From positions 4,415,501-4,479,500 of the forward strand of contig NZ_CP066783.1 of the NCBI RefSeq assembly GCF_019186805.1: a stretch of 64,000 nucleotides of DNA, in the 5' to 3' direction. The translations under genes were made by a program, and so were the position numbers. The first letter of the stretch is position 1. Each line of letters opens with the position of its first letter. The notes under the pieces were generated by a model that was not told where the DNA came from, ran no database searches, and worked only from the letters and a program-made list of their open reading frames with translations. The stretch is from Comamonas fluminis. Its GTDB lineage: Bacteria > Pseudomonadota > Gammaproteobacteria > Burkholderiales > Burkholderiaceae_C. This document shows positions 16,551 to 44,108 of the stretch, piece after piece.

Positions 16551-17828
16551 TCAGTTGTGCGGTGCCAGCAGATCCCGGTAGTAGCCTGGCAACGCAAACA
16601 GCGCGCCATGGGTCTGTGCGTTGTAGTACTGCAGCTCTCGCACCCGGCGCTGCTCAATGCGCTGCGCGGCTTGGGCTGCGGTCAAGGCCTTGGCATCCAG
16701 ACTGTCAGACGCCACGGCCAGCCCCCAGTACGCGCCGTAGAGCGGGATATACAGGCCGTAGCAGCGCACCACCGCAAACTGTTCGCGCAAGCTGCGTGCA
16801 AGCTCTGCCACCTGCGGGGCATGAAAGACGGGGCTACCCAGGTGCAGCACCAGTGCCCCGCCTGGCGCCAGCACCCGTTTCATTCGCGCCAGCGATTCCG
16901 GGGCATACAGTGCGCTGGCGGGTGTATCGGGGTCGGTCAAGTCCATGAAGGCCAGGTCAAAGCGCTCATCCGTGCTATCCATCAAGGCCATGCCGTCGCC
17001 AATGCAGACTTGCACGCGCGGGTCGTCCAGCGCGCCACGGTGCACGACTTGCAGGTGCTGGCGCGAGAACTGCACCACAGCTTCATCCAGCTCGGCCAGC
17101 ACCACGCGCTCGATGCTGGGGTGCTTGAGCAACTCTTCCGCTGCGCCGCCATCTCCGCCCCCCAGAATCAAGGCTTTGCGCGGTGATGGGTGGGCCATGG
17201 CGGCGGGGTGCACCAGGGCTTCGTGATAGAAGAATTCCTCTTTTTCAGAGGTCATGAAACGGCCGTCGATGCGCAGCACCTTGCCAAATTGCGACGTTTC
17301 CAGCAGCTCCAGTTGCTGAAATGGCGTCTGTACCTTCTCGCCAGCGGTGGCGCGATAGCCAAAGCGGCTGTGAGGGGTGAGATGTTCTTGCTCCCAGCCC
17401 ATTTCCTGCTCAGGCACAGTGTCCAGCGCAGCCTCATGACTCGCTGTTGCCATGCTGATGTCGCCGCGCATCAGCTGCTGGCGCAGCACGCGCTTGGGGG
17501 CAAAGGCTTCGATGACGCTCTCCATCAGTTTGCGCGCCTTGCCCGAGTTGTCATCAGAGAAATTGCAGACATAGACGTCGATGGTGACGCTGCCTGTCTC
17601 TGGCCAGGTGTGAATGGCCAGGTGCGACTCTGCCAGCAGCACGGTTCCTGTCACCCCGCCAGGCTGGCCCTCATAGGGCGGAAACTTCACCCATGTGTCA
17701 TCCACCAGAGTCAAACCAGAGGCCGCAGTCTGGTCGCGGCATAGCTGGGCGATGGCGTCGGCGTCGAGCATGTAGCGCTCGTGGCCCGAGCATTGGTACA
17801 AGTCAGCGGTCAGGTGCAGTCCGTGCAT
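16551..17828 (-). CDS. S-adenosylmethionine decarboxylase / spermidine synthase fusion (SpeD-SpeE)
   Basis: 425 residues from the ATG at 17828 ([13 protein letters not shown], with GGGGGA upstream); an earlier ATG at 17885 would add 19 residues. Residues 1-125 are a short class-1B Spe[15 protein letters not shown] holds the self-cleaving Ser68 that becomes the pyruvoyl group and His73, and Cys88 lies in VYVCNFSDD. Residues 142-425 are an aminopropyltransferase: GGGDGG (223-228), GDGMAL, and the catalytic DLTDP (296-300), with [13 protein letters not shown] in the substrate region. The fusion would couple formation of decarboxylated AdoMet to its use. Because some SpeD relatives decarboxylate ornithine or arginine instead, the SpeD substrate is inferred, not proven. 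Confidence 0.85.
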
Positions 17829-17965
17829 GTGGCGTGAGTCCCCCTTCGTTCTCTGCCGGGCCTTCAAGGTGATGGGCACCGGCATGGTTCAGACAAAGCA
17901 AACGACTCTAGCAAACATGCTTATCCGCACTCATCTCTGCCAGAAATGCGGATAACGCAACACCA

Positions 17966-19880: not shown

Positions 19881-19893
19881 AGCCGTGTCGCGC

Positions 19894-21858
19894 ATGAAGA
19901 AAACCGCCTCAGACCTTCCGCGCCTGCTGCAGGCGCTGGATCCTCATGCCGATCTGGCCCAGCGCCACCTGTGGCTTATCCATCTGGTGGAATGGATTAG
20001 AGCAGCCCAGCCTTCTACCGATCTGGCCGTGCGGCGCGTAGAGGAAATCGTCTCCGCCTTCGAGGCAGACCCCGACGCCCGCCTGCGCCTTTGCCAGTGG
20101 TGGCAAAAGCTGCTGGAGACGATTGACATCACCGCCCTGCTGGCCGACTTTGGCTTTGCACCGCGCACCGCCATGGCCAGCGAGGTGGCCGAGCGCCTGC
20201 GCTACAAGCTGCTGCCCAGCACGCCTGAGACGGTGGATGCCTCCGAGCTGTTCATGCTGGTCTTTCCCGACCGTTTTGACGCTCGCTGGCTGCATGCACT
20301 GGACAGCGCACTCATGGCCCGCATTGCGGCCTTGGTTGCTCCGCCACCAGAAGAAGGCACCAGCTTCTGGGAACGCAATCTGCTGGACGCCATCACTTAC
20401 TGTTCAGGCCAGATTCTGTCCACCGGCTTCGCGCCTGAGCTGCGCATGCGCATGAGCGACGAGGCGCGCGAAGAAAAGCCTTTTCACGCCCTGATTCACG
20501 ACGTGGAAAACCTGCGCGTGGAAGTCATGCTGCCGCTGCGCACCACCGATCGGCGCGATGCCGCAGCGGCGCAGCTGCGCGAACGACTGGAAGCCTGCCG
20601 CTCTGCCATCTCTTCGGTGTATTCCTATGTCGAAGCCGAAGGCATCTCCGTCGGTCTGATCTTCCGCCTGCGCCAGGTGCGTGCCCGTATTCTGCGCATT
20701 CGCCGCCTGCTGGACTGCCTGCTGTCCAACGACCGAGCCTACGAAACGTCCGAGCTGCTGGCCAATCTGGTCGCTGTAGGGCTGGAGCGCCGCAGCGTGC
20801 GCGCCCTGCTGTCCACCAATTCCTCGCTGCTGGCCGCCAAGGTGGCCGAGCGCAGCGCTGAAACCGGCGAGCACTACATCACCCGCGACAAGGGCGAATA
20901 CCGCAACATGATGGCCAAGGCCGCTGGCGGCGGCTTTGTGATGGCCTTCACCACACTGGGCAAGTTTGCGCTGTATGCGCTGGGGCTGTCCGTCTTCTGG
21001 TCGGGCCTGGCCGCAGGCATGAACTATGCGATCAGCTTTGTGCTCATCCAGATGCTGCACTTCACCGTGGCGACCAAGCAGCCTGCAATGACGGCCCCCG
21101 CCATGGCCGCCAAGCTCAAGGACATCCAGTCCGACAACTCGATTCAGGAGTTTGTCGATGAAGTGGCCCATCTGGTGCGCTCTCAGGTGGCAGCCATTCT
21201 GGGCAATGTACTCATCGTTTTCCCAGCCGCCATGGCGCTGACCATGGGCTACGCCGAACTGGTCAAGCACCCTGCGCTCAGCCCCTCGCACGCCACCCAG
21301 GTGCTGCAGTCACTGAGTCTGCTGGGCCCATCCGTGCTGTTTGCCGCCTTTACCGGCGTGCTGCTGTTTGCCAGCAGCCTGATTGCAGGCGGTGCGGAAA
21401 ACTGGTTTGTGCTGCGCAATATCGACTCTGTGATTCGCTACAACCCGCGCATCACCCGGTTTCTGGGCACTCAGCGCGCAGACCGCTGGGCGCGCTTTCT
21501 GCGCAAGAACATCTCGGGGCTGGCGTCCAATATTTCGCTGGGCTTCATGCTGGGACTGGTACCGGCTTTCGCCACCTTCTTCGGCCTGGGGCTGGAGGTG
21601 CGCCACGTCACCCTGTCCACCGGTCAGCTAGGTGTGGCCGTGCCTTCGCTGGGCTGGGATGTGCTGCACTCCAACCTGCTGTGGTGGGCCGTGGCCATGC
21701 TGCCCTTCAACGCCGCGCTGAATGTGGGCGTGAGCTTCTACCTGGCCTTCCGTGTGGCCTTGCGGGCCCACAACGTCAGTGGCGTTGACCGTTCGCGCAT
21801 CTACAAAGCCATACGCCAGCGCTTCTGGCGCAAGCCGTTCAGCTTCTTCTGGCCATAA
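19894..21858 (+). CDS. Gcr/SpecificRecomb family polytopic membrane protein
   Basis: 654 residues. The sequence matches the family annotated as site-specific recombinase (Gcr type), but it carries no serine- or tyrosine-recombinase catalytic motif that I can see. The N-terminal half is helical and soluble; the second half contains at least four or five strongly hydrophobic segments (FALYALGLSVFWSGLAAG, VAAILGNVLIVFPAAMALTM, SVLFAAFTGVLLFASSLIAG, LGFMLGLVPAFATFFGLGLE). It is therefore better described as an inner-membrane protein of unknown function. It follows apaG closely, as a probable two-gene unit. A perfect inverted repeat lies between it and the next operon. Confidence 0.7.
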   Translation: MKKTASDLPRLLQALDPHADLAQRHLWLIHLVEWIRAAQPSTDLAVRRVEEIVSAFEADPDARLRLCQWWQKLLETIDITALLADFGFAPRTAMASEVAERLRYKLLPSTPETVDASELFMLVFPDRFDARWLHALDSALMARIAALVAPPPEEGTSFWERNLLDAITYCSGQILSTGFAPELRMRMSDEAREEKPFHALIHDVENLRVEVMLPLRTTDRRDAAAAQLRERLEACRSAISSVYSYVEAEGISVGLIFRLRQVRARILRIRRLLDCLLSNDRAYETSELLANLVAVGLERRSVRALLSTNSSLLAAKVAERSAETGEHYITRDKGEYRNMMAKAAGGGFVMAFTTLGKFALYALGLSVFWSGLAAGMNYAISFVLIQMLHFTVATKQPAMTAPAMAAKLKDIQSDNSIQEFVDEVAHLVRSQVAAILGNVLIVFPAAMALTMGYAELVKHPALSPSHATQVLQSLSLLGPSVLFAAFTGVLLFASSLIAGGAENWFVLRNIDSVIRYNPRITRFLGTQRADRWARFLRKNISGLASNISLGFMLGLVPAFATFFGLGLEVRHVTLSTGQLGVAVPSLGWDVLHSNLLWWAVAMLPFNAALNVGVSFYLAFRVALRAHNVSGVDRSRIYKAIRQRFWRKPFSFFWP

Positions 21859-21952: not shown

Positions 21953-23011
21953 ATGCCCACAGCCCCAAATGCTCTCACACGCCGTCAATGGATGGCCTGT
22001 GGCATGACTGCTGCCGCTGCAGGCCTGTGCAGCGCCTGGGCAGCCAGCAGCCCTGCGGCAAAGGTGCAGGCAAAACAGAACAAGCGCTTTCGCGTGCTGA
22101 TGGTGACCTACCGCGGCACCACCGATGTGGACCACGGCTTTCAGGCCAGCCTTCAAGATGCAGGCCTGAATGTGGAGTTCATACTGCGCGACGTCCAGCA
22201 GGATGTATCGCGTGTGGCAGACATCCTCAATGCGCTGCCAGACATTGCCCCCGACCTGATTTACACATGGGGCACCCCCGTCACACTGGCCATGGCTGGC
22301 ACGGTGGAAAAACCCAATCCGCACCCGGCGCTGCGCAACATCCCCATTGTTTTTGCCCTGGTGGCTGATCCGCAGAAGGCAGGCCTGGTGCACTCGCTGG
22401 AAACGCCCGAGCGCAACCTCACCGGAGCCATCCATGTCGTGCCACTGCAGCGGCAGTTGCAGCATATGCGCAGCTACCGGGAATTCGACAAGCTGGGTGT
22501 GCTCTACAACCCTGCCGAGGCCAACTCACAGGCCATTGTGCAAAGCCTGCGCCAGTACGGTCAGGAGCATGGAAAGCAGATTCTGGCCCTTGGCGTATCC
22601 CCCTCTGCGCAAGAGCTTGAAGCGCAGATTGACCAGCTTCACCACAGCGGTGCGCAATGGCTGTACCTGCCGCCCGACACGTTTTTAGGCACCCTCTACC
22701 ACCGCATCACACCACAGGCCATGGCGCGCGGGCTGCCGCTGTTTGCCTCGACCGAGCTGGCCATGCGCACCGGCAACGCCCTGACTGGCGTTGTCAGCCG
22801 CTACTACTCCGTGGGCCAGCTCGCGGGCGTCAAGGCCTCCGACCTGCTGCTGGGCAATAAAACGGTTCAGCAAACGCCTGTGGAGTCGCTCAAGCGCTTT
22901 TCTCTGATGGTCAATATGCAAATGGCGCAGCAGCTGGACATGTTTCCACCGCTGCCGCTGCTCAACTATGCAGAAGTGGTTGCAGGCACCTCCGCAGGAG
23001 CGCAGTCATGA
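21953..23011 (+). CDS. Orphan ABC-type solute-binding protein (ABC_sub_bind family), sensor-linked
   Basis: 352 residues. The N-terminus contains LTRRQWMACG and a hydrophobic Ala-rich stretch, consistent with a Tat or Sec export signal. The mature part has the two-lobe layout of the PF04392 family: RFRVLMVTYRGTTDVDHGF, DLIYTWGTPVTLAMAGTV, IPIVFALVADPQKAGLV and RYYSVGQLAGVKASDLLLG. No ABC permease or ATPase gene is near, and the gene heads an operon of signalling proteins joined by four-base overlaps. I infer that it presents a periplasmic ligand to the downstream sensors rather than to a transporter. The ligand is unknown. Confidence 0.78.
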   Translation: MPTAPNALTRRQWMACGMTAAAAGLCSAWAASSPAAKVQAKQNKRFRVLMVTYRGTTDVDHGFQASLQDAGLNVEFILRDVQQDVSRVADILNALPDIAPDLIYTWGTPVTLAMAGTVEKPNPHPALRNIPIVFALVADPQKAGLVHSLETPERNLTGAIHVVPLQRQLQHMRSYREFDKLGVLYNPAEANSQAIVQSLRQYGQEHGKQILALGVSPSAQELEAQIDQLHHSGAQWLYLPPDTFLGTLYHRITPQAMARGLPLFASTELAMRTGNALTGVVSRYYSVGQLAGVKASDLLLGNKTVQQTPVESLKRFSLMVNMQMAQQLDMFPPLPLLNYAEVVAGTSAGAQS

Positions 23012-23682
23012 ACGTTGATACCTCTCTGCGCCCCCATCACCTTGCACAGCGCGAACTGACACCCGAAGACCTGCCCCAGGTGCTGGCCCTGCACCAGCTA
23101 TGCACACAGGGGCTGAGCGATGACCTCGTTCGCAAAGAGACCATGGCATCGCTGCAAAGCCTGATGCAGCGCGGCCAGTTCATCGGTCTGTTCGACCAGC
23201 AGCAGCTCGTCGCCTACGGGGTGCTGCTCAACAACCTGCAGCCCCATGAACGACTGCCCGAGAGCATTGCGCCAGACTCACAGCGCCCGCAGTCACTGCT
23301 GTGCGGCATTTCCGTCGCCCCGGCATGGCGGGGGCACGGACTACAGCGGCGGCTGATCATGCAACGCCTGGCCATGGCGCCAGCAGATGCGCTGGTGTTT
23401 TCCACTGCCGCACCTGCCAACCGGTACAGCTGGAACAATCTGCTGGAATGCGGCTTTCATGTGCGCGCCATCACCGATCAATATGGCGGCCACACCCGCT
23501 TTCTCATGGTGGCCGAGCCCCTGCCTGCCTACGCCCTGTATCCCGACCTGTCCAAAGAGTTCCACGGGCAGGACCTCAAACGTCAGCAGGAAGCGCTGAG
23601 CGAGGGCTGGCGCGGTGCCCAGCCCGGGCACACCCCTGAATTCCTGCGCTACGTTCCCACGCGGCGAGGCAAAACTGCATGA
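23008..23682 (+). CDS. GNAT-family N-acetyltransferase
   Basis: 224 residues. The N-terminal part (QRELTPEDLPQVLALHQLC) and the acetyl-CoA pyrophosphate loop RGHGLQRRLIMQRL (consensus R/Q-x-x-G-x-G/A) identify the GNAT fold; a beta-bulge strand SLLCGISVAPAW precedes the loop. Its ATG overlaps the preceding stop (ATGA), so it is translated with the solute-binding protein. The acceptor is unknown; within a signalling operon it might acetylate a component or a small molecule. An acetyltransferase between a binding protein and sensors is unusual. Confidence 0.78.
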   Translation: MNVDTSLRPHHLAQRELTPEDLPQVLALHQLCTQGLSDDLVRKETMASLQSLMQRGQFIGLFDQQQLVAYGVLLNNLQPHERLPESIAPDSQRPQSLLCGISVAPAWRGHGLQRRLIMQRLAMAPADALVFSTAAPANRYSWNNLLECGFHVRAITDQYGGHTRFLMVAEPLPAYALYPDLSKEFHGQDLKRQQEALSEGWRGAQPGHTPEFLRYVPTRRGKTA

Positions 23683-24440
23683 GTTCACGCACGCAGATCG
23701 CGGCTTTGATGGCGCTGGGCATGGCCTTGCTACTGGCCACCCTTACTGCTTTGTGCTGGCAATTTGCCAACACGCAAAGCGCCCGCCTCGCCAGCGAGCG
23801 CAACCACTTTCTGCTGACCAGCCTGCGCCGCACGGCAGAAGACTTTCTGGCCACCGGAATGACGCCCGAGCAGATGCCCGCCATGCAGGATGTGATCGAT
23901 CGCGAAAAAGCCAGCTTCACCCAGTTGCTGTCCATTGACTTGTTCACGCCATCTGGCCGCATTACCTACAGCACAGACGCCGGAGCGTTCAACGCGCAGG
24001 TGCCCGCTGACTGGGTAGAAAAGCTGGCCCAGTCTGGCGCCTGGGAAACGCTAGACCCCTTGCAAGACCAGCTGGGCATGCGCTTTGAAAACAATCTGGG
24101 CCGCGCAGCGGGCGGCATTGTTTTGACGCTGCAGCCCCAGGGCAGCAGCCAGTCTCTGGAGCAATGGCGGCAAACCGGCCTGCAACTGCTGCGCTGGATG
24201 GCTCTGGCCGCCATCAGTTGCGGCGCAGTGATGGTGCTGGGCCTGCACCAGCTGCGGCGCAGCCTCAGCCCCTATCAGCAGGTTCAAAGCATTCTGACCG
24301 GGGCTTTGGCCAGCGATGACGCTCACCCCGTCACTGATCTGCAGCAAAGCGCCGCACAGGCCGACATCACGCTGCACCAGCAAGCGGCGCAAGCCCGTAG
24401 CGCACTGCAGCAACTGCAGGATCTGGATCATGGCAGCTGA
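23679..24440 (+). CDS. Two-helix membrane sensor protein without output domain (first of two)
   Basis: 253 residues. The first membrane helix spans about residues 7-28 (IAALMALGMALLLATLTALC), a periplasmic domain of about 140 residues follows (with LLSIDLFTPSGRITYSTDAG, resembling a Cache/PAS-like sensor), the second helix lies near 170-190, and the tail is a Gln/Ala-rich coiled coil. There is no kinase, HAMP or cyclase domain. It overlaps the acetyltransferase stop as ATGA and overlaps the next gene by 11 bases. The architecture resembles the sensory half of the SpoIIE protein encoded two genes on. I infer that it is an accessory sensor subunit. No named family is recognised. Confidence 0.65.
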   Translation: MSSRTQIAALMALGMALLLATLTALCWQFANTQSARLASERNHFLLTSLRRTAEDFLATGMTPEQMPAMQDVIDREKASFTQLLSIDLFTPSGRITYSTDAGAFNAQVPADWVEKLAQSGAWETLDPLQDQLGMRFENNLGRAAGGIVLTLQPQGSSQSLEQWRQTGLQLLRWMALAAISCGAVMVLGLHQLRRSLSPYQQVQSILTGALASDDAHPVTDLQQSAAQADITLHQQAAQARSALQQLQDLDHGS

Positions 24441-25215
24441 CGCCGTGCCCCACACACCACGCAGCCTGCGCACCAGCCTGGCCATGCGCTGCGCGGCCGT
24501 CATGCTGATTGTGGGCATGGTCGCGGCCGCAGCCCTGCTGTGGGCATTGAATCACCACAACCAGCAACTGGCCCAGCAGGGCCAGCAAGCCATTGCCAGA
24601 TCAGTGGCCCAGACGCTGGCAAGCCAGACGGCTCGGGCCATACGTCTGGGGATTCCGCTGCAGAAGCTGCAGGGCGTGGAAACCTATCTTCAGCAGACCA
24701 TGGACAGCACGCCGCAACTGGCCTACCTGGCACTGACCGATACCAAGGATCAGCCACTGCAGGCGGTTTCACGCGGCAAGGCACTGCCCTTGATCAAGCT
24801 GCCGGTTGTGGTCAGAGGCCAGACCGTGGCCATGATTCATGCAGGCGCTGCCAGCACCAAGACGCAGGGCCTGCTGATGCCCGCGCTGGTCTGCATGGGA
24901 GCCGTGCTGCTGATGGCCTTCATGACAGGCTGGTGCATTCATGCCTGGCCCGCCAGCCGCCTGCAGCGCAGGCATGAATTACTGCTCAGCGCGCTGCATC
25001 AGGGGCAGACCTTGCCCGTTCAGGAAGGGCAGGCAAGCGATGCGCTGCAAGCCGCCTTGCAGGCACTGGCCATGCGGCAGCAGCGCAATCTGCAAGCACA
25101 GCAAGCCGTGGCGGACTACGCCGCCGAGCTTCACGCCGTGGATTTCGATCAAAAAATGCGTCAATCCATTGATGAAATTGCGCAAGCAACTATAAAAAAC
25201 GGAGCAAATCAATGA
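24430..25215 (+). CDS. Two-helix membrane sensor protein without output domain (second of two)
   Basis: 261 residues, ATG at 24430 inside the end of the previous gene. Helix one is at about residues 20-40 (AAVMLIVGMVAAAALLWAL). The periplasmic part contains QLAYLALTDTKDQPLQAVSRG, in the same position as the TPSG segment of its neighbour, so the two are likely paralogues. Helix two lies near 160-180, and the cytoplasmic tail is a long Gln/Ala coiled coil. The last codons (25178-25214) lie within a copy of the dispersed family II repeat, so the C-terminus may have been rewritten by it. The next ATG overlaps its stop (ATGA). Confidence 0.65.
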   Translation: MAADAVPHTPRSLRTSLAMRCAAVMLIVGMVAAAALLWALNHHNQQLAQQGQQAIARSVAQTLASQTARAIRLGIPLQKLQGVETYLQQTMDSTPQLAYLALTDTKDQPLQAVSRGKALPLIKLPVVVRGQTVAMIHAGAASTKTQGLLMPALVCMGAVLLMAFMTGWCIHAWPASRLQRRHELLLSALHQGQTLPVQEGQASDALQAALQALAMRQQRNLQAQQAVADYAAELHAVDFDQKMRQSIDEIAQATIKNGANQ

Positions 25216-27275
25216 CTTTGCGGCTGCGCATCATCCTGATCGTGGCTGCGGGGCTGCTGCTGACCTCACTGGCCCTGCTGGGCTCTGGCTGGATTGCGCA
25301 GCAGTTGCAGCAAGAGCGCATTGCCCAGCTGGCACAGCAGGCTCAGTCATCCCTCTGGGAGCAAATTCTGGCGGCGGAAGAGCAGGACATGGATGCCGGG
25401 CTGGACAAGCTGGCCGCAATGCCTGCCTTTGTCAAAGCAGCGAAAGCTCTGGACAGCAATGCGCTGGACGGAAAGGCGCTGGAAAAAGCCCTGATTGCCC
25501 AGAACCTCTACCCCGGCGAAGACCAGCAGATTCAGCTCATCGCCGTGCTGCGCCCCGGGCGCGAGCCGTTCAGCCTGGGTCGCGCCGCCCCGCAGCCGCT
25601 GCTGGACAACAGCAGTCTGGAGCAGTTGTTCAGCGGCGAAGTCATCAACGGCCTGCGCCTTGGCAGCGGCAATATTGCAATGGTGATCTCGGCACGCCTG
25701 TTGGCGGTCGATGGCGAGCCCGTGGCCATCGTTGCAGGTCGCCATATCGGCGGCGCATTGCATCGTCTAGGGCAGCGCGGTGGCTTGCAGGCCAGCCTGA
25801 TTGATCTGCGCGGCAGCCTGATAGCCACCACCAACGCCGACCTGTGGCAGCAGATAGAGCCGCGCATAGCACCGCGCCAGAGCCAGTATTTCGAAGCCGA
25901 TATAGGCCAGCGAATTCACACCGTCACCAGCCACCAGGTACGCGATCTGGCCCAGCATGATGTGGGCTCTCTTGTGACCATCAAGGATCAGACCGAGCAG
26001 TCTCAGGCCAGCCGCTTTCTGAACCGCCTGACTGCAGGCGTGGCACTGGCGCTGATTGCCTGCGGGCTGCTGGGCCTGTCCTGGTATCTGCGCCATAGCT
26101 TCAAGCCCCTGGAGCAGGCCATTGCCGCCCTGCAGGCACTGGCAACGGGCAACACCGATGTGCTGCTGCACCATGCACGCAATGATGAAATTGGCCGCAT
26201 TGCCAAGGCCGTCACCAGCTTTCGCAGCAGCGCCCGTGAACTGGCACGCACCCGCAGCCTGCACGACAGAGTGCGCCGCCGTCAGGAACAGCTGATTCAC
26301 CAGCAACTGCAGCAACTGGCCGACGCCACCGACATGACCAGCCGCGAAGAAGTGCTGCAGCTGCTGCAAAGCGGCAGTGACGCGCAGAGCGCTGGGCCGG
26401 GCGAAGACAACCAGTTGCGCCAGTTGGCACTGGTGATGTCCGACCTCACGCGGCGCATCGTCGATCAGCACCAGCGCCTGTCCAGCATGGTGGTGGAACT
26501 GCGCGAAGCACTGGTCACCAAAACCCGGCTGGCGGGCCTGCAGCAAGAGCTGCAGATCGCCGCCGAAGTGCAGCGCAGCATCCTGCCCCAGCAAATGCCC
26601 GAAGACCCGCGCCTTCAGATGCATTGCCACATCACACCGGCACGCGAGGTGGGAGGCGACTTCTACGACTATTTCATGCTGGACGATGAGCACCTGGGCA
26701 TGGTGGTGGCCGATGTGTCCGGCAAAGGCATTCCCGCCGCACTGTTCATGGCCATCACGCGCACGCTGCTCAAGTCCACCGCGGCGTTTGTGACGGCCCC
26801 CAGCCCCTGTATCCGCAGGCTCAACGACCTGCTGGCGGCTGAGAACGAGCAGATGATGTTTGTCACCGTGTTCTACGGCGTGCTTCACCTGCCCAGCGGC
26901 CAGTTGCGCTATGTGAACGCCGGGCACAACCCGCCTTATCTGCTGAGCGCCAGCAACCAGGTTCAGACACTGGCCCGCACCGGTGGTGTTGCCGTGGCGG
27001 TGAGCGAAGAGTTTCCCTATCAGGAAGCGGTGCTGCAGCTGCACCCGGGCGACCGCCTGTTCCTGTTTACCGATGGCGTGACCGAGGCCTTCAACGCCGA
27101 GCAGCAGGAGTATGGCGACAAGCGGCTTGTCAGCACACTGCAATCGGCCGCCGCACATTGCCAGCAGCCCGAAGAGCTGAACCGCGTGGTGCTGCAAAGC
27201 GTGCGTGACTTTGAAGACGGCGCACCACAGGCCGATGACATCACCTGCGTCAGCCTGCGTTACTGCGGTCCGTAA
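25212..27275 (+). CDS. Membrane sensor with HAMP and SpoIIE/RsbU-type PP2C phosphatase domain
   Basis: 687 residues. Membrane helix one is at about 8-28; a periplasmic sensor region (residues 30-270) contains LIDLRGSLIATTNADLWQQ; helix two lies near 275-295; HAMP follows (SFKPLEQAIAALQALATGNT, NDEIGRIAKAV). After a coiled-coil linker, the PP2C domain (about 440-687) shows EVQRSILPQ, REVGGDFYDYF, VADVSGKGIPAALFM, YVNAGHNPPY and FTDGVTEA, with metal-binding Asp residues intact. RsbU/SpoIIE phosphatases dephosphorylate STAS-domain anti-anti-sigma proteins. A fitting kinase is encoded convergently, overlapping this gene's last 26 bases, and a STAS protein lies 2.3 kb on. Confidence 0.9.
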   Translation: MTLRLRIILIVAAGLLLTSLALLGSGWIAQQLQQERIAQLAQQAQSSLWEQILAAEEQDMDAGLDKLAAMPAFVKAAKALDSNALDGKALEKALIAQNLYPGEDQQIQLIAVLRPGREPFSLGRAAPQPLLDNSSLEQLFSGEVINGLRLGSGNIAMVISARLLAVDGEPVAIVAGRHIGGALHRLGQRGGLQASLIDLRGSLIATTNADLWQQIEPRIAPRQSQYFEADIGQRIHTVTSHQVRDLAQHDVGSLVTIKDQTEQSQASRFLNRLTAGVALALIACGLLGLSWYLRHSFKPLEQAIAALQALATGNTDVLLHHARNDEIGRIAKAVTSFRSSARELARTRSLHDRVRRRQEQLIHQQLQQLADATDMTSREEVLQLLQSGSDAQSAGPGEDNQLRQLALVMSDLTRRIVDQHQRLSSMVVELREALVTKTRLAGLQQELQIAAEVQRSILPQQMPEDPRLQMHCHITPAREVGGDFYDYFMLDDEHLGMVVADVSGKGIPAALFMAITRTLLKSTAAFVTAPSPCIRRLNDLLAAENEQMMFVTVFYGVLHLPSGQLRYVNAGHNPPYLLSASNQVQTLARTGGVAVAVSEEFPYQEAVLQLHPGDRLFLFTDGVTEAFNAEQQEYGDKRLVSTLQSAAAHCQQPEELNRVVLQSVRDFEDGAPQADDITCVSLRYCGP

Positions 27276-27720
27276 CCCCCATCAGCAGGCAATTCCAGCC
27301 GCCCATTCGCTGGTATTCAAAGCGCTGCAGATAGTGGCGCATCAGCCGCAGGCCATGCCCGCCAGCTTCCGCCTCATCAAGACTGTCCACCAGCGCGGCA
27401 GAGGCCTTGGCCGTGGGGTCAAACGCCTCACCGTTATCGGCAATGCACAGGGCTGGGCCGTCATCCATCAGGCCCAGCGAGAGCCAGATCTGCAGCGGCT
27501 CACCAGCAGGCACCATGGCGTGGGTTGCGATATTGGTCAGCGCCTCATCGGCAGACAGGCTGAGCGCAAAGACCTGCTTCATGGCCCATTGCTGCTGTTC
27601 GCCCACCGCCTCCAGCCAGGCAAGGATGTCGGCAATGGCTTCGCAGCTTGCAGGCATCTGCCGCTGCTCCAGCAAGTGAAGCGCAGGCCACGGCAATGAC
27701 GGGTGATGGGGTTGCACCAT
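27250..27720 (-). CDS. RsbW/SpoIIAB-like anti-sigma serine kinase (HATPase_c_2)
   Basis: 156 residues from ATG 27720, ten bases past the permease stop. All three GHKL boxes are present: N-box SADEALTNIATHA, G1 IADNGEAFDP, and G2 GGHGLRLMRHY, so ATP binding and Ser-kinase activity are expected. In partner switching such kinases phosphorylate a STAS protein and hold an output protein, usually a sigma factor, in check. It is co-oriented with and directly follows the NCS2 permease gene. Its 3' end overlaps the convergent phosphatase gene by 26 bases, tying the two transcription units together. Confidence 0.87.
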   Translation of the reverse strand: MVQPHHPSLPWPALHLLEQRQMPASCEAIADILAWLEAVGEQQQWAMKQVFALSLSADEALTNIATHAMVPAGEPLQIWLSLGLMDDGPALCIADNGEAFDPTAKASAALVDSLDEAEAGGHGLRLMRHYLQRFEYQRMGGWNCLLMGVTDRSNAG

Positions 27721-27730
27721 GGGATGAAAT

Positions 27731-29491
27731 TCAGTGGGCAAAGTGAAGCTGCAGGCCAGAAGGCTGACCCGATTGCGCATCATAGGTACTCACTCTATCC
27801 GCAATATGTCGCAGCAGCTGCGAGGAGACCTGGGACAGCGCGGCTTCGAAATCTGCATCATCAGCTTCCAGCAGCTCCTCGGGCGACAAGGCTTTGCTGC
27901 TGCCCTTGGCCGCCAGCGGCAGGGCTGCGCCACTGTGCAGCAACTCCAGATCGAAATTGAATTCGTCAAAGCTGCCGCGAATTTCCATGAGCTTGCGACC
28001 CGCCGCCTCTATGCCCTCTGCTGCTTCCAGCGCCGCAAGCGCTGCACGCTGCACCACATCACGGCGTGCGCCCCAGGCCGCACCCTGCATTTCTACAAAG
28101 CTGGTGATGTCCTGATGCAGATTGCCGCTGCCGCCGGCGGTCAGATCGAGATGCGCCTTGCGCGAGGTTCCCAGGCGAAACAGCAGATTCAGCGCAATGA
28201 CCAGCAAGCCCGCCACCACCAGTGCGTTGCCAAACAGCGAACGCCAGTAGGCAGGCACCGAATTCATCATCTGCGGCATGGCCATGACGGCAATGCCCGC
28301 ACTCATGGCCAGGCCCACGGCAAAGGTGGAGCGGCTATCCATGGCGCGTGAGGCAATCAGCTCCATGCCCGCGACGATCAGAAACGCCGAGGCATACAGC
28401 TCCACCGCGCCCAGCACGGGCACGGGTATCTGCATCAGGCTGACGGTGATCTTGGGCACAAATGCGGCCAGCGCCAGCACCACTGCAGTCACCAGACCGA
28501 TGATGCGCGACGTGGCATGGGTTGCATGGGCCAGCGCGATATTGGTGGAGCAAGTGCAGGTCGGAAACCCGCCAAACATGCCTGCCACAAAATCGCCCAG
28601 CGCATGGGCACGCATGCCGCCCGATACGGCGGGCATATTGATGCGGCGCCAGTCAGCGTCTTCCAGCTTGTCCATCATGCTGACGTTGCCCAGCGTGTCC
28701 AGCTGGGTCAGCATGGCAATCAGGCCAATGGCCACCAGCGTACCCACATCCCCCTGAAAGCTGGGCATATGCAGCGCGGGCAGTTGCAGCCAGGCGGCCG
28801 CGCCTATGGCCTGCGCCCCTTGAAGCTGGCCCAGCCATGCAGACACCAGCAAACCCGCAGCAATACCCAGCAGCAAGGCCATCAGGCTCAAGCGCTTGCC
28901 ACCCCAGACCGAGGCAACCACGATGGTCAGCAGGGTGCAGGCCGCCACCGCCGCGCTTTCACCATGGATCTGCCACTGCGCATTCAGCCCCAGCGAATGG
29001 CGCACCGCGCTCTCCACCAGCGCCAGCCCACCCATGGCCACCACCACACCCACCACGATGGTGGGAAACACCGAACGCATTCGCGTGACCAGCGGCGCCA
29101 GCCCCAGCGTAATGGCGCAATACACCAGCGCAATCAAGGGCATTCCGCCAGGCCCGAAAGCTGCCAGCGTGGTCGCCACAAAGGAAATGACAAAGGGGTT
29201 GGGTACATGGGATAGCAGAAACCCGCTACCCCAGCGCCCGCCCCAGGCCTGCAGTGCCGTGCAGATCGCCATGCCAATCAGGGTCATGGCCAGCATGCTC
29301 TGCGTCCCCTCGGCATCCAGCCCCGCAGCCCGTGTGGCAACCAGTACATAGGACAGAAAGGCAATCGCCGTGGCACTGTGCTGCGCAGCCAGCAGCAGCA
29401 ATGTGCCCAGCGGCGGGCGCTCGTCAGCCCCATAGATCAGCGCAGGGGAACGTCGTCGAACCACGGAAGGAGGAAAACGAAGAGTGGGCAT
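27731..29491 (-). CDS. NCS2 (uracil/xanthine-type) permease fused to a degenerate GHKL-like domain
   Basis: 586 residues from ATG 29491; a longer frame from 29536 is possible. Residues 1-450 are a polytopic NCS2-like transporter, with FLLSHVPNPFVISFVATTLA, LTQLDTLGNVSMMDKLED and GFPTCTCSTNIALAHATHAT, the last standing where the NCS2 signature Asn-x-Gly motif falls. Residues 457-586 are a soluble domain whose order resembles the neighbouring RsbW-like kinase: a helix RDVVQRAALAALEAAEGIEA in place of the N-box, SFDEFNFDLELLHSGAALPL in place of the G1 strand, and SSQLLRHIADRV near the end. The ATP-binding Asn and Asp-x-Gly residues are absent, so it would be a non-catalytic docking domain. The substrate is unknown. 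Confidence 0.75.
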   Translation of the reverse strand: MPTLRFPPSVVRRRSPALIYGADERPPLGTLLLLAAQHSATAIAFLSYVLVATRAAGLDAEGTQSMLAMTLIGMAICTALQAWGGRWGSGFLLSHVPNPFVISFVATTLAAFGPGGMPLIALVYCAITLGLAPLVTRMRSVFPTIVVGVVVAMGGLALVESAVRHSLGLNAQWQIHGESAAVAACTLLTIVVASVWGGKRLSLMALLLGIAAGLLVSAWLGQLQGAQAIGAAAWLQLPALHMPSFQGDVGTLVAIGLIAMLTQLDTLGNVSMMDKLEDADWRRINMPAVSGGMRAHALGDFVAGMFGGFPTCTCSTNIALAHATHATSRIIGLVTAVVLALAAFVPKITVSLMQIPVPVLGAVELYASAFLIVAGMELIASRAMDSRSTFAVGLAMSAGIAVMAMPQMMNSVPAYWRSLFGNALVVAGLLVIALNLLFRLGTSRKAHLDLTAGGSGNLHQDITSFVEMQGAAWGARRDVVQRAALAALEAAEGIEAAGRKLMEIRGSFDEFNFDLELLHSGAALPLAAKGSSKALSPEELLEADDADFEAALSQVSSQLLRHIADRVSTYDAQSGQPSGLQLHFAH

Positions 29492-29590
29492 AACTACAAT
29501 GCAGCTGAAGTGCCCTGCAATGACATAAGCATTCACTGCGGGCCTGTTATTCTCGAAAAGTTCGTCCAGATTTCATCACAAGTGCTCTCT

Positions 29591-29923
29591 ATGACTATTG
29601 CAATCGAGCCCTCAGAAAAAGCCCAGATCATCAGCCTGCAAGGCCAGGTGAACAGCTCCAACGCGGCCACGGTCGAAAGCGAAGTGCTTGCCGTAGTTCA
29701 GGGCGGCGCCAAAAACGTCCTGCTCAATATGACGGAGCTGAGCTACATCTCCAGCGCAGGCCTGCGCGTGGTGCTGGTGCTGGCCAAGCGCCTGAAGCAG
29801 GCTGGCGGCAAGCTGGTCATCTACGGCATGCAGCCCCATGTGCGCGAAGTGTTCGACATCAGCGGCTTTCTGGCCATCCTGAACGTTGCCGCCAGCCGCA
29901 GCGAGGCGCTGGAACAGTTTTAA
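29591..29923 (+). CDS. STAS-domain anti-anti-sigma factor (RsbV/SpoIIAA-like)
   Basis: 110 residues, a single STAS domain: MTIAIEPSEKAQIISLQGQV, then LLNMTELSYISSAGLRVVL with the Ser-Ser pair that carries the regulatory phosphoserine, and a C-terminal helix. The D-x-S-S-x-G pattern (here LSYISSAG) is that of bacterial anti-anti-sigma proteins such as BtrV. It diverges from the NCS2 permease gene, with only 100 bases holding both promoters. It is the obvious substrate for the RsbW-like kinase and the SpoIIE phosphatase encoded just before it. Confidence 0.9.
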   Translation: MTIAIEPSEKAQIISLQGQVNSSNAATVESEVLAVVQGGAKNVLLNMTELSYISSAGLRVVLVLAKRLKQAGGKLVIYGMQPHVREVFDISGFLAILNVAASRSEALEQF

Positions 29924-33901: not shown

Positions 33902-35809
33902 TCAGAACACCAGTTCTGGATGAACCCCACAGGTCATCCTTGCACCCACTTCCGTCTGTGCCAGGTCAATGCCCAGGGCTTTGAGCAACACATTGATCAG
34001 TGGGTCCAGCAACGGCGACAGCAACCCTTGAATAATGCCCTGCACCAGGGCCAGCAGGCTGCCAAGAATGCCCTTGATCGCGTTGAAAAGCGCCTGAAGT
34101 CCACCCGGGCTTGCACGAGGATCCGGTGACAGCGTCTGCAGTGCATTCAGACTGTTCACCGTATCCGAAAGACTTCCAATAATGTTCTGGGCCGACATGG
34201 CTTGCCACAGCGGATCCTCATCCAGTCTAGGAGGATTGGAGAACGTAAATTGAGGATTGGTATTAGCAGCCACAGGCGTATTCACCAGAACCCCGAGACC
34301 TCCAAAATACTGCGGCGTGCGCTTGCCAAAGCCATCGCACCCAATGCAATCGAGCCGCAATATCGGCAATGGTGACATTTGAACCGGCGCCCTGGTTCCA
34401 AAAGCCTGAGCCTTGGCTGCAGCCAGCGAATCACCTAGTCGCCCCAGCCGAATATCAGCAAGCGCAGTGCGCGTGTTGGTGACCAGTTTCTTGCTCCCCG
34501 TGTTGCAATCGTAGTCCGTGACATAAGACTGCCCTCCACCAACATCCAGACTCAAGTCAATTCTGGTTGGCGATGGAAGAATCGTCATGTCGGCATAGCC
34601 ATCCACATTGCCCAGCAGCACATTGAGCAACGCAATCGCAGGAGACAGCGGCTTCAGCAAAGCATCCACCGTCTGGAATAGCCCGCCAAGAACAGGGGCC
34701 TCAATCGACACCAGAACCCGCACCTGCGCTGTACGCACATAGATGCGATTGGGCCCCAAGGGGTCAATCTTTGCCAGTTGCGGATCACCCACGGCAGATA
34801 GCTGAGGAGGCTCAATGACCTTGAGAAACACATTCAGGTTCACCAGCCCTGGAATAGGCACAGCAACAGCCCCCGCCAGCGCACTATTGCCATTGCCGAC
34901 CTGAATCGCGCCCTGCACCAGGTCAAAGACATTCAGGCCAAGGTCTAATGCCGACGAATCCAGCCCAGTCTGCAAATTCAGAAGCTGAGACAGCTTGAGC
35001 GTCAAGGCGGGAACACCTAAAGCCGCTGTCACCAACTGATTCAACGCCTGCACCGCCACATTGGCAGTGTTGCCGCCTTGCTGAACAGCATCAACCATCG
35101 CCTGCAGCAATACGCCCACCGAGACATCGGCATTCACCAGTTGGTCGTAATTACCCACATTGACGCCCACACGGGGAGCCAGAAAATCCAGGAACTGCAG
35201 CAGATTGATCTGCGTGTTCACCAACCCGTTCCAGCCCACCGCGTCAAGGCTGAGGTTCGAGCCAAGCAAGCCTCCCAGAACAGCATTGAGAATGGGAGAG
35301 TTTTTCGAATCCACCTTGAGCAGCGTTGTGCGAATGGACAGCGCTGCCGCAGGCTGAGGACGCCATGCAACCGCTTGGGCCTCCACCGTTCTGGAGGAAT
35401 TGCCAGAGGTCTGCCACACAAAAAGAAATGGGACTGCACGCGTCATCCGCACCCGGCTTGCATTGAAAGGGTCTTGGCCCGCTACAAACATATCGCTGGC
35501 GGTAGTGCCTGCACGAGACTTGCTCCAGTTACCGCATTCCGCATTCACTTCACTGGTCAGGGCCCCATTGCGCACTGCATTCTGCTGAGCACTCGGGCCG
35601 CACTCCTGCCGCGTTGTAACGGAAGCCCCCGCCAGCGCCGCCAAATCCGCGATCTTCTGCAATTCCCGCTTTTGCCAGAACACATTGCCAATATCAATGG
35701 TGGCCAGGCAAATCACCGCCACCATCAGCCATAGCGCGCCCAGCGTCGCCACAGAGCCGGACTGGCGATGGATGCGTTTGCGGCTCAAGCCCTTTGCAAA
35801 AGACTGCAT
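33902..35809 (-). CDS. tadG: TadG-like pilus assembly protein
   Basis: 635 residues. A basic N-terminus precedes one membrane helix (about 22-44, GSVATLGALWLMVAVICLAT) and the TadE/TadG signature QKRELQKIADLAALAGA. The rest is a large extracytoplasmic region with many Leu/Asn-rich segments (LLKVDSKNSPILNAVLGGLL, NLQTGLDSSALDLGLNVFDL) and several cysteines (DCNTGSKK, LDCIGCDGFG). TadG-like proteins act as minor pseudopilins or surface components of Flp pili. It is the last gene of the tad locus and is larger than most TadG proteins, with no von Willebrand domain that I can recognise. Confidence 0.8.
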   Translation of the reverse strand: MQSFAKGLSRKRIHRQSGSVATLGALWLMVAVICLATIDIGNVFWQKRELQKIADLAALAGASVTTRQECGPSAQQNAVRNGALTSEVNAECGNWSKSRAGTTASDMFVAGQDPFNASRVRMTRAVPFLFVWQTSGNSSRTVEAQAVAWRPQPAAALSIRTTLLKVDSKNSPILNAVLGGLLGSNLSLDAVGWNGLVNTQINLLQFLDFLAPRVGVNVGNYDQLVNADVSVGVLLQAMVDAVQQGGNTANVAVQALNQLVTAALGVPALTLKLSQLLNLQTGLDSSALDLGLNVFDLVQGAIQVGNGNSALAGAVAVPIPGLVNLNVFLKVIEPPQLSAVGDPQLAKIDPLGPNRIYVRTAQVRVLVSIEAPVLGGLFQTVDALLKPLSPAIALLNVLLGNVDGYADMTILPSPTRIDLSLDVGGGQSYVTDYDCNTGSKKLVTNTRTALADIRLGRLGDSLAAAKAQAFGTRAPVQMSPLPILRLDCIGCDGFGKRTPQYFGGLGVLVNTPVAANTNPQFTFSNPPRLDEDPLWQAMSAQNIIGSLSDTVNSLNALQTLSPDPRASPGGLQALFNAIKGILGSLLALVQGIIQGLLSPLLDPLINVLLKALGIDLAQTEVGARMTCGVHPELVF

Positions 35810-35842
35810 GCAGATACACCTTCAGACAGCGACTGTGGCGCT

Positions 35843-36289
35843 TTAGCGGCCACCGCCGGATTTGTTGCCGACCTGCGTTTCCGAGCTTTCGGGAATCTTG
35901 TGGGTGAAGCTTTCCAAGTAGCGCTGATAGGTGCGCTGCGCCACGTCGCTGGTCACGGGGTAGTTGTTGCGCGATGCGTACTGGCCGCTGGCCTGCAGCG
36001 CCAGCAGGTAGCTGGTGGCATCACCCACGCGGTTGGTGGCGGGCGGGTTGAGCGTGGCTTGCGTTGGCGCGGGCGTCTGCGTGACTGCGGCGGAAGCTGG
36101 TGCGGTAGCGGGTGCAGGCGTTGCGGCAGTGCCTTGGGGCACTGAAACATTGGTGACCTTGCCGCTTGCGCCCGCATTGCTTGCGGGGCTGCTGCTCTGT
36201 GCCACCGCGGCAGTGCTCAGCACCAGCATCATGATGACGGCCATCATTGCCTTGGTTTGCGTGGCGGTGGAAATTCGGGTGTTTTTCAT
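35843..36289 (-). CDS. Small exported DUF3613 protein of the tad locus
   Basis: 148 residues from ATG 36289, with AAGGAA five bases upstream. A signal peptide (AMMAVIMMLVLSTAAVAQ) is followed by a low-complexity Ala/Pro/Thr region, then a compact C-terminal domain GDATSYLLALQASGQYASRN ... QRTYQRYLESFTHKIP that resembles DUF3613. Proteins with this domain recur at tad loci of betaproteobacteria; their role is not defined. It lies between tadD and tadG in the same orientation with 29- and 33-base gaps. Confidence 0.68.
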   Translation of the reverse strand: MKNTRISTATQTKAMMAVIMMLVLSTAAVAQSSSPASNAGASGKVTNVSVPQGTAATPAPATAPASAAVTQTPAPTQATLNPPATNRVGDATSYLLALQASGQYASRNNYPVTSDVAQRTYQRYLESFTHKIPESSETQVGNKSGGGR

Positions 36290-36318
36290 AAAAATTCCTT
36301 GAGGTTCACGCAAGCAGA

Positions 36319-38094
36319 TCAGGGCCAGACACGCTCTGAGGCCGTGGCTTTGAATGCGGTGGCAGGTTTGCTGTCTTCCACATCCGGGGTTTCAAAAAAC
36401 AGGCCGCCAGCAGCGGCAGATCGCGGCAGCATGGCTTGCACCTGCTTGTTGCCTGCTGCGGCCCCTACCTGGCGTACCGCAGCGGGGCTTGCGACAGCCA
36501 TCACGACAGCCCCCTCCTGCAGAGAGCGCGCAGGCCCTGTGGGCTGGCGTGGCACTGCAGCAGGAGGCGCGGGTTCTACGCGCTGCACGGGAACGGCCTG
36601 CACCGGTGCGGGCTGAACTCGCTCCACAGGCTCCTGCTTCACAACAACGGCTTTACGCGCTGGTGCAACTGGTGCGGGCTCTGCCGCCTTGGCTGCGGAA
36701 GCCATTGGCATCGTTTCCAGCGGCACCTGCTTTGCTACAGATACAGGAGCTTCTTGCGTAAGCTGAATACTGGGTTGAGGCAGCTTATTCTGCAAATCAG
36801 GCTGAGGTTTCCCGGCCTCTGCCCTTGGCACAGCTCGCGGCTGAACGGAGGCCACAGCCGGGGCCGTCAATGAGGGCTGCGGGGCTTCGACAACCGCAAC
36901 CGCAGCGGGCGCCGGTGCAACAGGCGCCGCATAGGCATAGCTGGAAGAAACGCTGGGGGCGAACTGCCCAGGAAAACGCGGGCGGGCAGAGTCAAAGCTG
37001 CTGCCAGACACCATCCACTGACCGCCACCGGCTGCCCTCTCCACATTCTGCGGCAGCGCAGGCGGCGACAAAGTGACGGGCTGCGGAAGTGGCGCTGCGA
37101 CGGCGACTTCTGCTGCAGGTTTTGGCGCAGATTCAGCGACGAGCGCTGCAACAGGTGTTGCTGCAGATGCCTGCACCGCAGCAAGGGCTGGCGCCTTGGC
37201 CACCTCAGGCTCTGGCGCGGGCTTTTGAGCTGCGGGGGCTGGCTTTGCAGGCTCAGGCTCTGCCTGCGCAGCAGGGGTTTCCGCCTTGGCCACTGATGCC
37301 TGAGGCGCTGCACTGGCACGAGACACGTTCACCACCTTGCCCGTGGCCTGGGGGGCCGGCTCGGCAGCCGCCTGCCTCGATTTTTGCTGCCACTGCGCGG
37401 CCTGCTCTCTGATGGCCTGCTGGGTCTGGGCATCCATCTTGCGCTGACGCATGAAATTCTCGGCCTCCGCACTCTGGCCGCTGACCATCATGAACAGGCC
37501 CAGATTCACATTGGCCTGTGCATCTTCAGGATTGAGCTGTGCCGCCTGCATCAATGGAAGGCGCGCCGCATTGAGGTCACCTGCACGCAGATAGGCATAG
37601 CCCAGATCGCTGAGCAGCCGTGGATCTACAGGGTTGGAGACACGGGCCTGCTCCATCTGCTGCGCGGCTCTGGGAAAGTCACCCAGCTCTGCCGCCACAC
37701 GGCCCAGCCCATAACGTGCAGCGCCATCCTTGGCACTGCCCAGAAGCCCCTGATAAATGGGCACTGCCGCATTGAGCTGGCCGACCTGGCGCAGCGCATC
37801 CGCACGCAGCAGGCGCGAATCGCTGGAGGCGCCCCATTGCTTGTCCAGCGCATCGAGGTGAGCGATGGAGGCGTACCACAGCGACTTGCTCTGCATCTGG
37901 CGCACCAGCGCCAGATAGGTTTCCTGAGTGTTGACGACGGGGTCTTTTTCCAGCGGCATTTCCGCAGCAGCCTTGGCCGCTGGCGACAGCACTGGCTGGT
38001 TCTGTCCCATCAATGAACCCATGCCGGAGCAACCCGAAAGCATGGAGACGGCCAATGCGGCCAGCGGCAGCATGCGAGATGGCTTGTTTTTCAT
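36319..38094 (-). CDS. tadD: TadD-like TPR lipoprotein with long Ala/Pro-rich C-terminus
   Basis: 591 residues. The lipobox LSGC (Cys22) follows a signal peptide. Residues 75-225 contain tetratricopeptide repeats (DSRLLRADALRQVGQLNAAV, GAARYGLGRVAAELGDFPRA, DPRLLSDLGYAYLRAGDLNA). From about 240 to the end the protein is extremely rich in Ala, Pro, Gln and Val, with repeated AAxPxA phrases. TadD is an outer-membrane-anchored lipoprotein of Flp pilus assembly. The long disordered tail is far beyond the usual TadD length and may span peptidoglycan. Its ATG overlaps the tadC stop (ATGA). Confidence 0.83.
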   Translation of the reverse strand: MKNKPSRMLPLAALAVSMLSGCSGMGSLMGQNQPVLSPAAKAAAEMPLEKDPVVNTQETYLALVRQMQSKSLWYASIAHLDALDKQWGASSDSRLLRADALRQVGQLNAAVPIYQGLLGSAKDGAARYGLGRVAAELGDFPRAAQQMEQARVSNPVDPRLLSDLGYAYLRAGDLNAARLPLMQAAQLNPEDAQANVNLGLFMMVSGQSAEAENFMRQRKMDAQTQQAIREQAAQWQQKSRQAAAEPAPQATGKVVNVSRASAAPQASVAKAETPAAQAEPEPAKPAPAAQKPAPEPEVAKAPALAAVQASAATPVAALVAESAPKPAAEVAVAAPLPQPVTLSPPALPQNVERAAGGGQWMVSGSSFDSARPRFPGQFAPSVSSSYAYAAPVAPAPAAVAVVEAPQPSLTAPAVASVQPRAVPRAEAGKPQPDLQNKLPQPSIQLTQEAPVSVAKQVPLETMPMASAAKAAEPAPVAPARKAVVVKQEPVERVQPAPVQAVPVQRVEPAPPAAVPRQPTGPARSLQEGAVVMAVASPAAVRQVGAAAGNKQVQAMLPRSAAAGGLFFETPDVEDSKPATAFKATASERVWP

Positions 38095-42682: not shown

Positions 42683-42703
42683 GGTCATACCTCATGGCCT
42701 TTC

Positions 42704-44107: not shown

Positions 44108-44108
44108 A

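Follow-up and report, generated by a model that had tools for sequence, protein, structure and literature searches.

A partner switch that appears to be joined to a transporter is described here from Comamonas fluminis, at positions 21953-29923 of a 64,000-nucleotide stretch of contig NZ_CP066783.1 that was analysed as a whole (the window). Judging by its parts, the locus holds a complete switch of the RsbU/V/W type, comprising a phosphatase, a serine kinase and a STAS protein, together with an NCS2 permease whose C-terminal tail is predicted to share the fold of the kinase. Gene neighbourhoods indicate that the tailed permease belongs to the switch module, and this evidence points to a switch that either governs or listens to a nucleobase-type transporter. 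The explanation put forward, with a confidence slightly short of even, is that a btr-type partner switch is wired to the transporter through the pseudokinase tail of the permease.

The phosphatase (25212-27275, + strand) has the sensor-HAMP-SpoIIE (PP2C) arrangement of RsbU, BtrU and SiaA, with Pfam matches of 172.8 bits for SpoIIE (PF07228) and 30.9 bits for HAMP, transmembrane segments at residues 5-23 and 273-291, and a score of 78.8 bits against the SiaA model (cut-off 700). The RsbW/BtrW-type serine kinase (27250-27783, - strand; PF13581, 56.8 bits), the start of which is uncertain, has intact catalytic motifs (E, N, DxG and GxG); all 18 kinases of one alignment share the E and N, and a larger alignment retains the Glu and Asn in 153/153 and the Asp in 152/153. 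The STAS protein of RsbV/BtrV type (29591-29923, + strand; PF01740, 73.5 bits) more likely begins at the ATG at 29591, giving 110 residues, than at the start of the open reading frame (ORF) at 29378. Its regulatory Ser55 (29753-29755) is invariant in 18/18 aligned sequences. Elsewhere in the C. fluminis genome (G000), the two other SpoIIE matches score 31.3 and 27.1 bits, and the other STAS matches over the cut-off lie in frames of 528-606 residues, with one below the cut-off in a 112-residue frame. Four PF13581 matches exceed the cut-off, in frames of 179, 439, 837 and 912 residues, and the 179-residue window kinase is the sole short frame among them. An earlier sequence-only reading of this DNA had recognised all three proteins, the intact kinase motifs and the regulatory serine, as well as a run of overlapping genes ending in the phosphatase, and each of these points is borne out. 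The run comprises five + strand genes, encoding a PF04392 solute-binding protein (SBP), a GNAT acetyltransferase, two membrane proteins (SEN1 and SEN2) and the phosphatase, with successive overlaps of 4, 4, 11 and 4 bases. Past the phosphatase follow the - strand genes, in which the permease precedes the kinase. The phosphatase and kinase genes are convergent with a 26-base overlap, and the STAS gene is divergent from the permease.

The same reading had overlooked the permease gene (27731-29536, - strand), which occupies most of the interval between kinase and STAS. The permease gene shares its strand with the kinase and immediately precedes it, the two ORFs overlapping or nearly so, and its likely start, an ATG at 29491, is separated by about 99 bp from the STAS start at 29591. 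A PF00860 match of 123.7 bits and a UraA-like predicted fold point to an NCS2/NAT-type transporter; the score against NCBIfam pbuX is 167.6 bits, under its cut-off of 414.15. The best of five predicted structures has a mean predicted local distance difference test (pLDDT) score of 83.5 (72-75 for the other four), and its first structural match is UraA, in the company of SVCT1 and UapA, with SLC26 transporters coming after these.

Residues 453-601 of the permease (27731-28180, - strand) form the tail, for which an RsbW/SpoIIAB-like fold with a degenerate ATP site has been predicted (AF2, pLDDT 86.1, with matches to PDB structures). The relation to the kinase emerged only from the predicted fold and from larger profiles, of 153 and then 267 tails. 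When 153 tails were aligned with 153 kinases by hhalign, a probability of 86.3% was obtained (maximum of 60 shuffles 11.7; reversed 0.1), rising to 92.1% over 113 columns with 267 tails (maximum of 60 shuffles 5.3). Against the E-x3-N, DxG and GGHGL motifs of the kinase, the tail presents E-x3-A, HxG and nothing recognisable, respectively. The N-box Asn is kept in 0/153 tails (2 gaps) and the Asp of DxG in 0/153 (4 gaps), so that the tail is best called a pseudokinase domain, one that appears unable to bind ATP. The residues F523, D524 and E525 are each found in at least 149/153 tails, and conserved tail motifs are WGAR, FDEFN and, at the C-terminus, HFxH. In all, 267 distinct tails were gathered from the proteins and loci collected, and the tail of the G046 permease retrieved 169 database proteins as a query. 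PF00860 is the sole Pfam domain given for the permeases in the protein listings; the tail is widespread yet unrecognised.

The association between tail and switch was assessed in 32 intact loci outside the window, drawn from a permease-alignment scan of named genomes (at least 23 loci), from G001, G003 and G046, and from order- and phylum-wide tail searches (seven loci). Two loci were dropped, L053 for its broken tail frames and L070 because its permease is split over several frames, and both the window and L128, which was reached through its STAS and kinase genes, were left out. A kinase, alone or fused to the phosphatase and counted as a kinase in either form, lies near the tailed permease in 22/32 loci, and a STAS gene occurs in the fetched stretch of 20/32; a PP2C domain was found in 17/32 and a PF04392-type SBP in 7/32. 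Flank lengths vary, and neighbours can be missed where the contig is short (L031, L037). Among 20 controls, hand-picked and non-random, from tail-less NCS2 matches in relatives, kinase or STAS was detected in 0/20 and a weak PP2C match in 1/20, using neighbour profiles built from the same tailed loci and then applied to the controls. The resulting Fisher tests, which ignore kinship, give p=2.6e-7 for kinase and 3.2e-6 for STAS. At the level of whole genomes, kinase and STAS homologues are present in 17/17 genomes searched. The sequence-only reading had proposed co-occurrence in related genomes as a check: the genes do co-occur, but patchily, the tailed permease being found in 4/61 genomes, the window's own included. 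All four of these carry kinase and STAS (Fisher over the 61 genomes, kinship ignored, p=6e-4 and 9e-4, respectively).

In the mechanism proposed, a periplasmic ligand would act through the SBP, the two SEN proteins and the sensor region of the phosphatase itself, switching the phosphatase on. The phosphatase would then strip the phosphate from Ser55 of the STAS protein, opposing the kinase, and unphosphorylated STAS would leave the kinase and bind the pseudokinase tail in the way that SpoIIAA binds SpoIIAB. Since STAS would not be phosphorylated by the tail, binding would last until the kinase re-phosphorylates free STAS, making the tail a receiver and not an eraser. The STAS-bound tail would gate or stabilise the permease, with the sign of the effect (open or shut) left free. 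A binding protein and membrane sensors feeding the switch had already been suggested by the sequence-only reading, and that part stands: a PF04392 SBP and membrane sensors recur with the phosphatase in G001, G003 and L034, and diverged sets of SBP, membrane sensors and phosphatase occur in L118-L120, L125, L127 and L136. Its verdict that the output was unknown has given way to a candidate, the permease.

Several observations weigh against this mechanism. The Foldseek matches of the tail model score moderately (the 20 best have TM-scores of 0.45-0.64 over the tail), and a predicted fold alone does not establish a binding partner. PF13581 does not match the tail at E 0.1, a smaller hhalign comparison of 26 tails with 19 kinases returned 0.5%, or no similarity, and a tail profile searched against PDB sequences gave only unrelated weak matches. 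The N-box Glu is kept in 145/153 tails, more than a pure relic needs. The proposed direction may also be wrong, because phosphorylation of BtrV in B. bronchiseptica has been reported to promote binding to BtrW, the reverse of the canonical cycle (PMC8256260). Concerning gene association, neither kinase nor STAS lies nearby in 10/32 loci, and the notion that the tailed permease always stands beside the switch was rejected on this count; these ten lone loci belong to nine genomes, 9/9 of which carry homologues of both elsewhere (STAS at E <=2.3e-24, kinase at E <=3.2e-22). Conversely, kinase is found in 7/57 tail-less relatives and STAS in 8/57 (E 1e-10), so the switch does not always come with the permease either. 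One of the genomes, G027, holds compact PP2C, STAS and kinase genes without a tailed permease (L117), and the switch is therefore independent of the permease there. Taken together, the locus and genome counts indicate that the permease seems to need the switch, and the switch not the permease.

The main rival to this explanation reverses the direction of the signal, with the permease as an input, either a transporter-like sensor (transceptor) or a membrane anchor, and the output of the switch located elsewhere. The substrate state would alter the tail, which would take up or free STAS or pair with the kinase. RsbW-type kinases are dimers, and a tail-kinase pair would be natural here because the kinase ORF adjoins the permease ORF. 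A GAF domain is fused ahead of the tailed permease in two genomes of one genus (G137, L072:9584-12100; G213, L073:9533-12106), an arrangement that fits either a sensory role or a role as output, and Bordetella BtrU, BtrV and BtrW act on secretion and not on a known transporter. However, the input side of the cassette is already supplied by its SBP, its two membrane sensors and its sensor-phosphatase, and no other conserved output candidate was noticed beside the tailed loci, where no systematic look was made. We consider an input role for the permease unlikely, albeit the most credible of the alternatives.

A less probable account, to which we give little credence, retains a classical partner switch with a distant output, such as a sigma or anti-sigma factor, a cyclase or a secretion component, and regards the permease as cargo or as an optional client. 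The kinase-bearing tail-less relatives mentioned above agree with it, as does a diverged, permease-less form of the cassette. In this form (SBP, GNAT, SEN1, SEN2, PP2C, kinase and STAS), the cassette adjoins injectisome genes in L118 (G031), L119 (G026), L120 (Diaphorobacter caeni) and L136 (a Comamonadaceae metagenome-assembled genome, MAG). FHIPEP is encoded next to STAS in G026, G031 and G798; FHIPEP and a needle protein were identified by Pfam in L120, and the secretion genes of L136 were judged by eye. The SEN2-like proteins of these four loci carry extra MFS-like membrane parts, as judged by eye. Two genomes, G798 and G802, hold the secretion-linked cassette plus a tailed permease elsewhere (L032 and L031, respectively). 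Considering that both permease-linked and secretion-linked forms exist, the cassette looks modular, with one input side and different clients.

In C. fluminis itself, the outputs searched for were not found. The absence of a sigma factor nearby, asserted by the sequence-only reading, holds genome-wide for sigma-B/F/G, since no TIGR02980 match exceeds the cut-off, other sigma types not having been searched for; a sigma-B/F/G output was rejected accordingly. Four weaker TIGR02980 matches (frames of 815, 248, 328 and 205 residues) all lie outside the window. A single FHIPEP gene is present in G000, as in G001 and G003, and in G000 it is located about 2.5 kb from the 248-residue sigma-70-type frame, probably FliA, as a flagellar gene would be. 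A type III secretion output was rejected for G000 on the basis of this single copy. These results count against a distant output, within the limit that other output types were not searched for, as do the kinase and STAS homologues in 9/9 genomes with a lone tailed permease. Weakest of all, and improbable in our view, is a tail that is a relic or a dimerisation module unlinked to STAS, its linkage reflecting the shared ancestry of one cluster, for although synteny is common to related lineages and the Fisher tests take no account of kinship, separate lineages differ in gene order and fusion (L056, L071, L076 and the Roseateles-type loci) and the tail is strongly conserved at F523, D524 and E525.

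The proposed link between switch and permease can be set against several known systems. The sequence-only reading had treated the design as unusual, a view that no longer holds, given that the gene list of the Bordetella btr cluster, btrV-btrW-alr-btrO-btrU-btrN, shows matching gene types in an almost identical order, where btrO is an MFS protein and btrN an 'ABC transporter' (PMC7498569); the likeness is one of gene lists. As in the window, STAS, kinase and PP2C genes are clustered, an ABC-transporter-type protein stands beside the phosphatase, and the regulatory serine is Ser55 in BtrV (PMC8256260). From its position, BtrN may be a PF04392-type SBP, and the window SBP its positional counterpart. 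Type III secretion in Bordetella needs all three switch proteins, through 'a yet unknown mechanism' according to a 2020 review (PMC7498569). The window differs from btr as listed in its tailed NCS2 permease linked to STAS and kinase and in its GNAT, SEN1 and SEN2 genes, with alr and the MFS gene absent, and G000 differs in having one FHIPEP gene only.

Loci closer to the btr order lie in Alcaligenaceae, with STAS-KIN-alr-sensor::MFS-PP2C-SBP in L124 and L128 and KIN-alr-sensor::MFS-PP2C-SBP in L045 and L051 (KIN denoting the kinase), alr and MFS having been checked by Pfam in L045 only. As in the published btr list, alr stands between kinase and MFS gene in all four. In L124 and L128 the STAS and kinase genes are neighbours; the two are about 5 kb apart in L051 and about 31 kb apart for L045. 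Next to kinase or STAS there is a tailed permease in L045, L051 and L128; the genome of L124 has one at another site.

The RsbU/RsbV/RsbW and SpoIIE/SpoIIAA/SpoIIAB systems share with the window the phosphatase, the STAS protein with its phosphorylation residue and the intact kinase motifs; the window differs from both in lacking a sigma-B/F/G factor over the cut-off in its genome and in having a second RsbW-fold domain fused to a transporter. Outputs other than sigma factors are known, as in SiaABCD of Pseudomonas aeruginosa, where a HAMP-PP2C phosphatase, kinase and target protein trio (PMC7647112) acts on the diguanylate cyclase SiaD (PMC8457831); there the output is SiaD and the phosphorylated residue Thr68 of SiaC, whereas here they would be the permease and STAS Ser55. 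A STAS protein acting on a transporter also has a precedent in MlaB, which contacts the transporter ATPase MlaF via a face with a phospho-site-like Thr52, for whose phosphorylation experimental evidence is described as lacking (PMC7367683). In contrast to MlaB-MlaF, the window encodes a kinase and a phosphatase, and STAS would have an RsbW-like domain as its partner. SLC26/SulP transporters have a 7+7 fold related to that of the permease (by the model matches; PMC6497670) and likewise carry a C-terminal domain from the partner-switch world, but they fuse STAS itself, while the permease fuses the fold of the STAS partner, a mirror image. Among the matches listed, by titles and abstract openings and with subscription journals mostly outside, neither an NCS2 permease with an RsbW-like domain nor control of a nucleobase transporter by a partner switch was found, which does not prove such a system unpublished. 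Each element is of a known kind; within that scope, the combination seems new.

The gene set occurs in varying orders in several Burkholderiales families and in one genome from outside the order. In the Comamonas-type arrangement (window, L054, L055), SBP-GNAT-SEN1-SEN2-PP2C is accompanied by KIN-PERM-STAS, where PERM is the tailed permease. Loci from Simplicispira, a Comamonas MAG, Paenacidovorax and Giesbergeria (L033-L036) have an extra tailed permease, a second and diverged copy downstream of the kinase, so that one switch may serve two clients. Roseateles, Paucibacter, Rubrivivax and two further Burkholderiales (L040-L044, L052) show PP2C::KIN-STAS-x-PERM, with the kinase fused to the phosphatase. 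Other orders are KIN-STAS-PERM-PP2C in G391 (L071), KIN-STAS-PERM with PP2C and SBP close by in G046 (L056) and, outside Burkholderiales, PERM-STAS-KIN with PP2C some 4.5 kb on in G521 (L076). Two tailed permeases lie side by side in opposite orientation in L074 of G727, and on another contig of that genome (L125) kinase and STAS come first in an extended series of sensor, MFS, SBP and PP2C genes. The tailed permease is sparse, being found in at least 7/399 Burkholderiales and at least 3/398 Pseudomonadota genomes, with C. fluminis counted in both; these counts are lower bounds, from searches that scored at most 10 candidates per genome.

On the input side, the SBP (21953-23011, + strand; PF04392, 98.5 bits) has a Tat-like RR motif at its N-terminus, as judged by eye, and scores 115.5 bits against the TrpX model, under its cut-off of 390; related solved structures are 6hni, 3lkv and 3lft. 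The GNAT acetyltransferase gene (23008-23682, + strand; PF13527, 30.6 bits) has a stop/start overlap with that of the SBP. SEN1 (23679-24440, + strand) has two transmembrane segments by hydropathy (7-25 and 170-188), with a probable periplasmic loop between them and a short cytoplasmic tail, and SEN2 (24430-25215, + strand), likewise a membrane sensor by hydropathy, has a probable periplasmic loop. Both are without an output domain and without a Pfam match over the cut-off; some SEN2 relatives are fused to MFS parts (seen in L125). Directly upstream of the SBP operon is a PF10136 'site-specific recombinase' gene (19891-21858, + strand; 752.6 bits), which adjoins the operon in G001 and G003 too. 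Elsewhere, the window encodes an S-adenosylmethionine decarboxylase fused to spermidine synthase (16551-17885, - strand), Tad/Flp-type pilus genes (33902-44218; a TadG-like protein, a TPR protein and a secretin) and a hybrid histidine kinase with dCache, PAS and receiver domains (52654-55338, + strand). Neither a tRNA nor an Rfam family at gathering score was detected in the whole window.

The known outputs of partner switches are sigma factors, a diguanylate cyclase and secretion. A bolder extension of the proposal, which we advance tentatively and with less confidence than the wiring itself, is that there is a transporter family run by partner switching, in which a STAS protein under phospho-control would dock on an NCS2-fused, kinase-derived pseudokinase. 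Permease control would then be an old function of the btr cassette, and control of type III secretion in Bordetella and its relatives a later rewiring. If this is true, a transporter with a dead kinase copy would constitute a new output class for partner switches and would offer a concrete, testable partner for STAS proteins lacking known targets, as well as a lead on how the btr system controls type III secretion.

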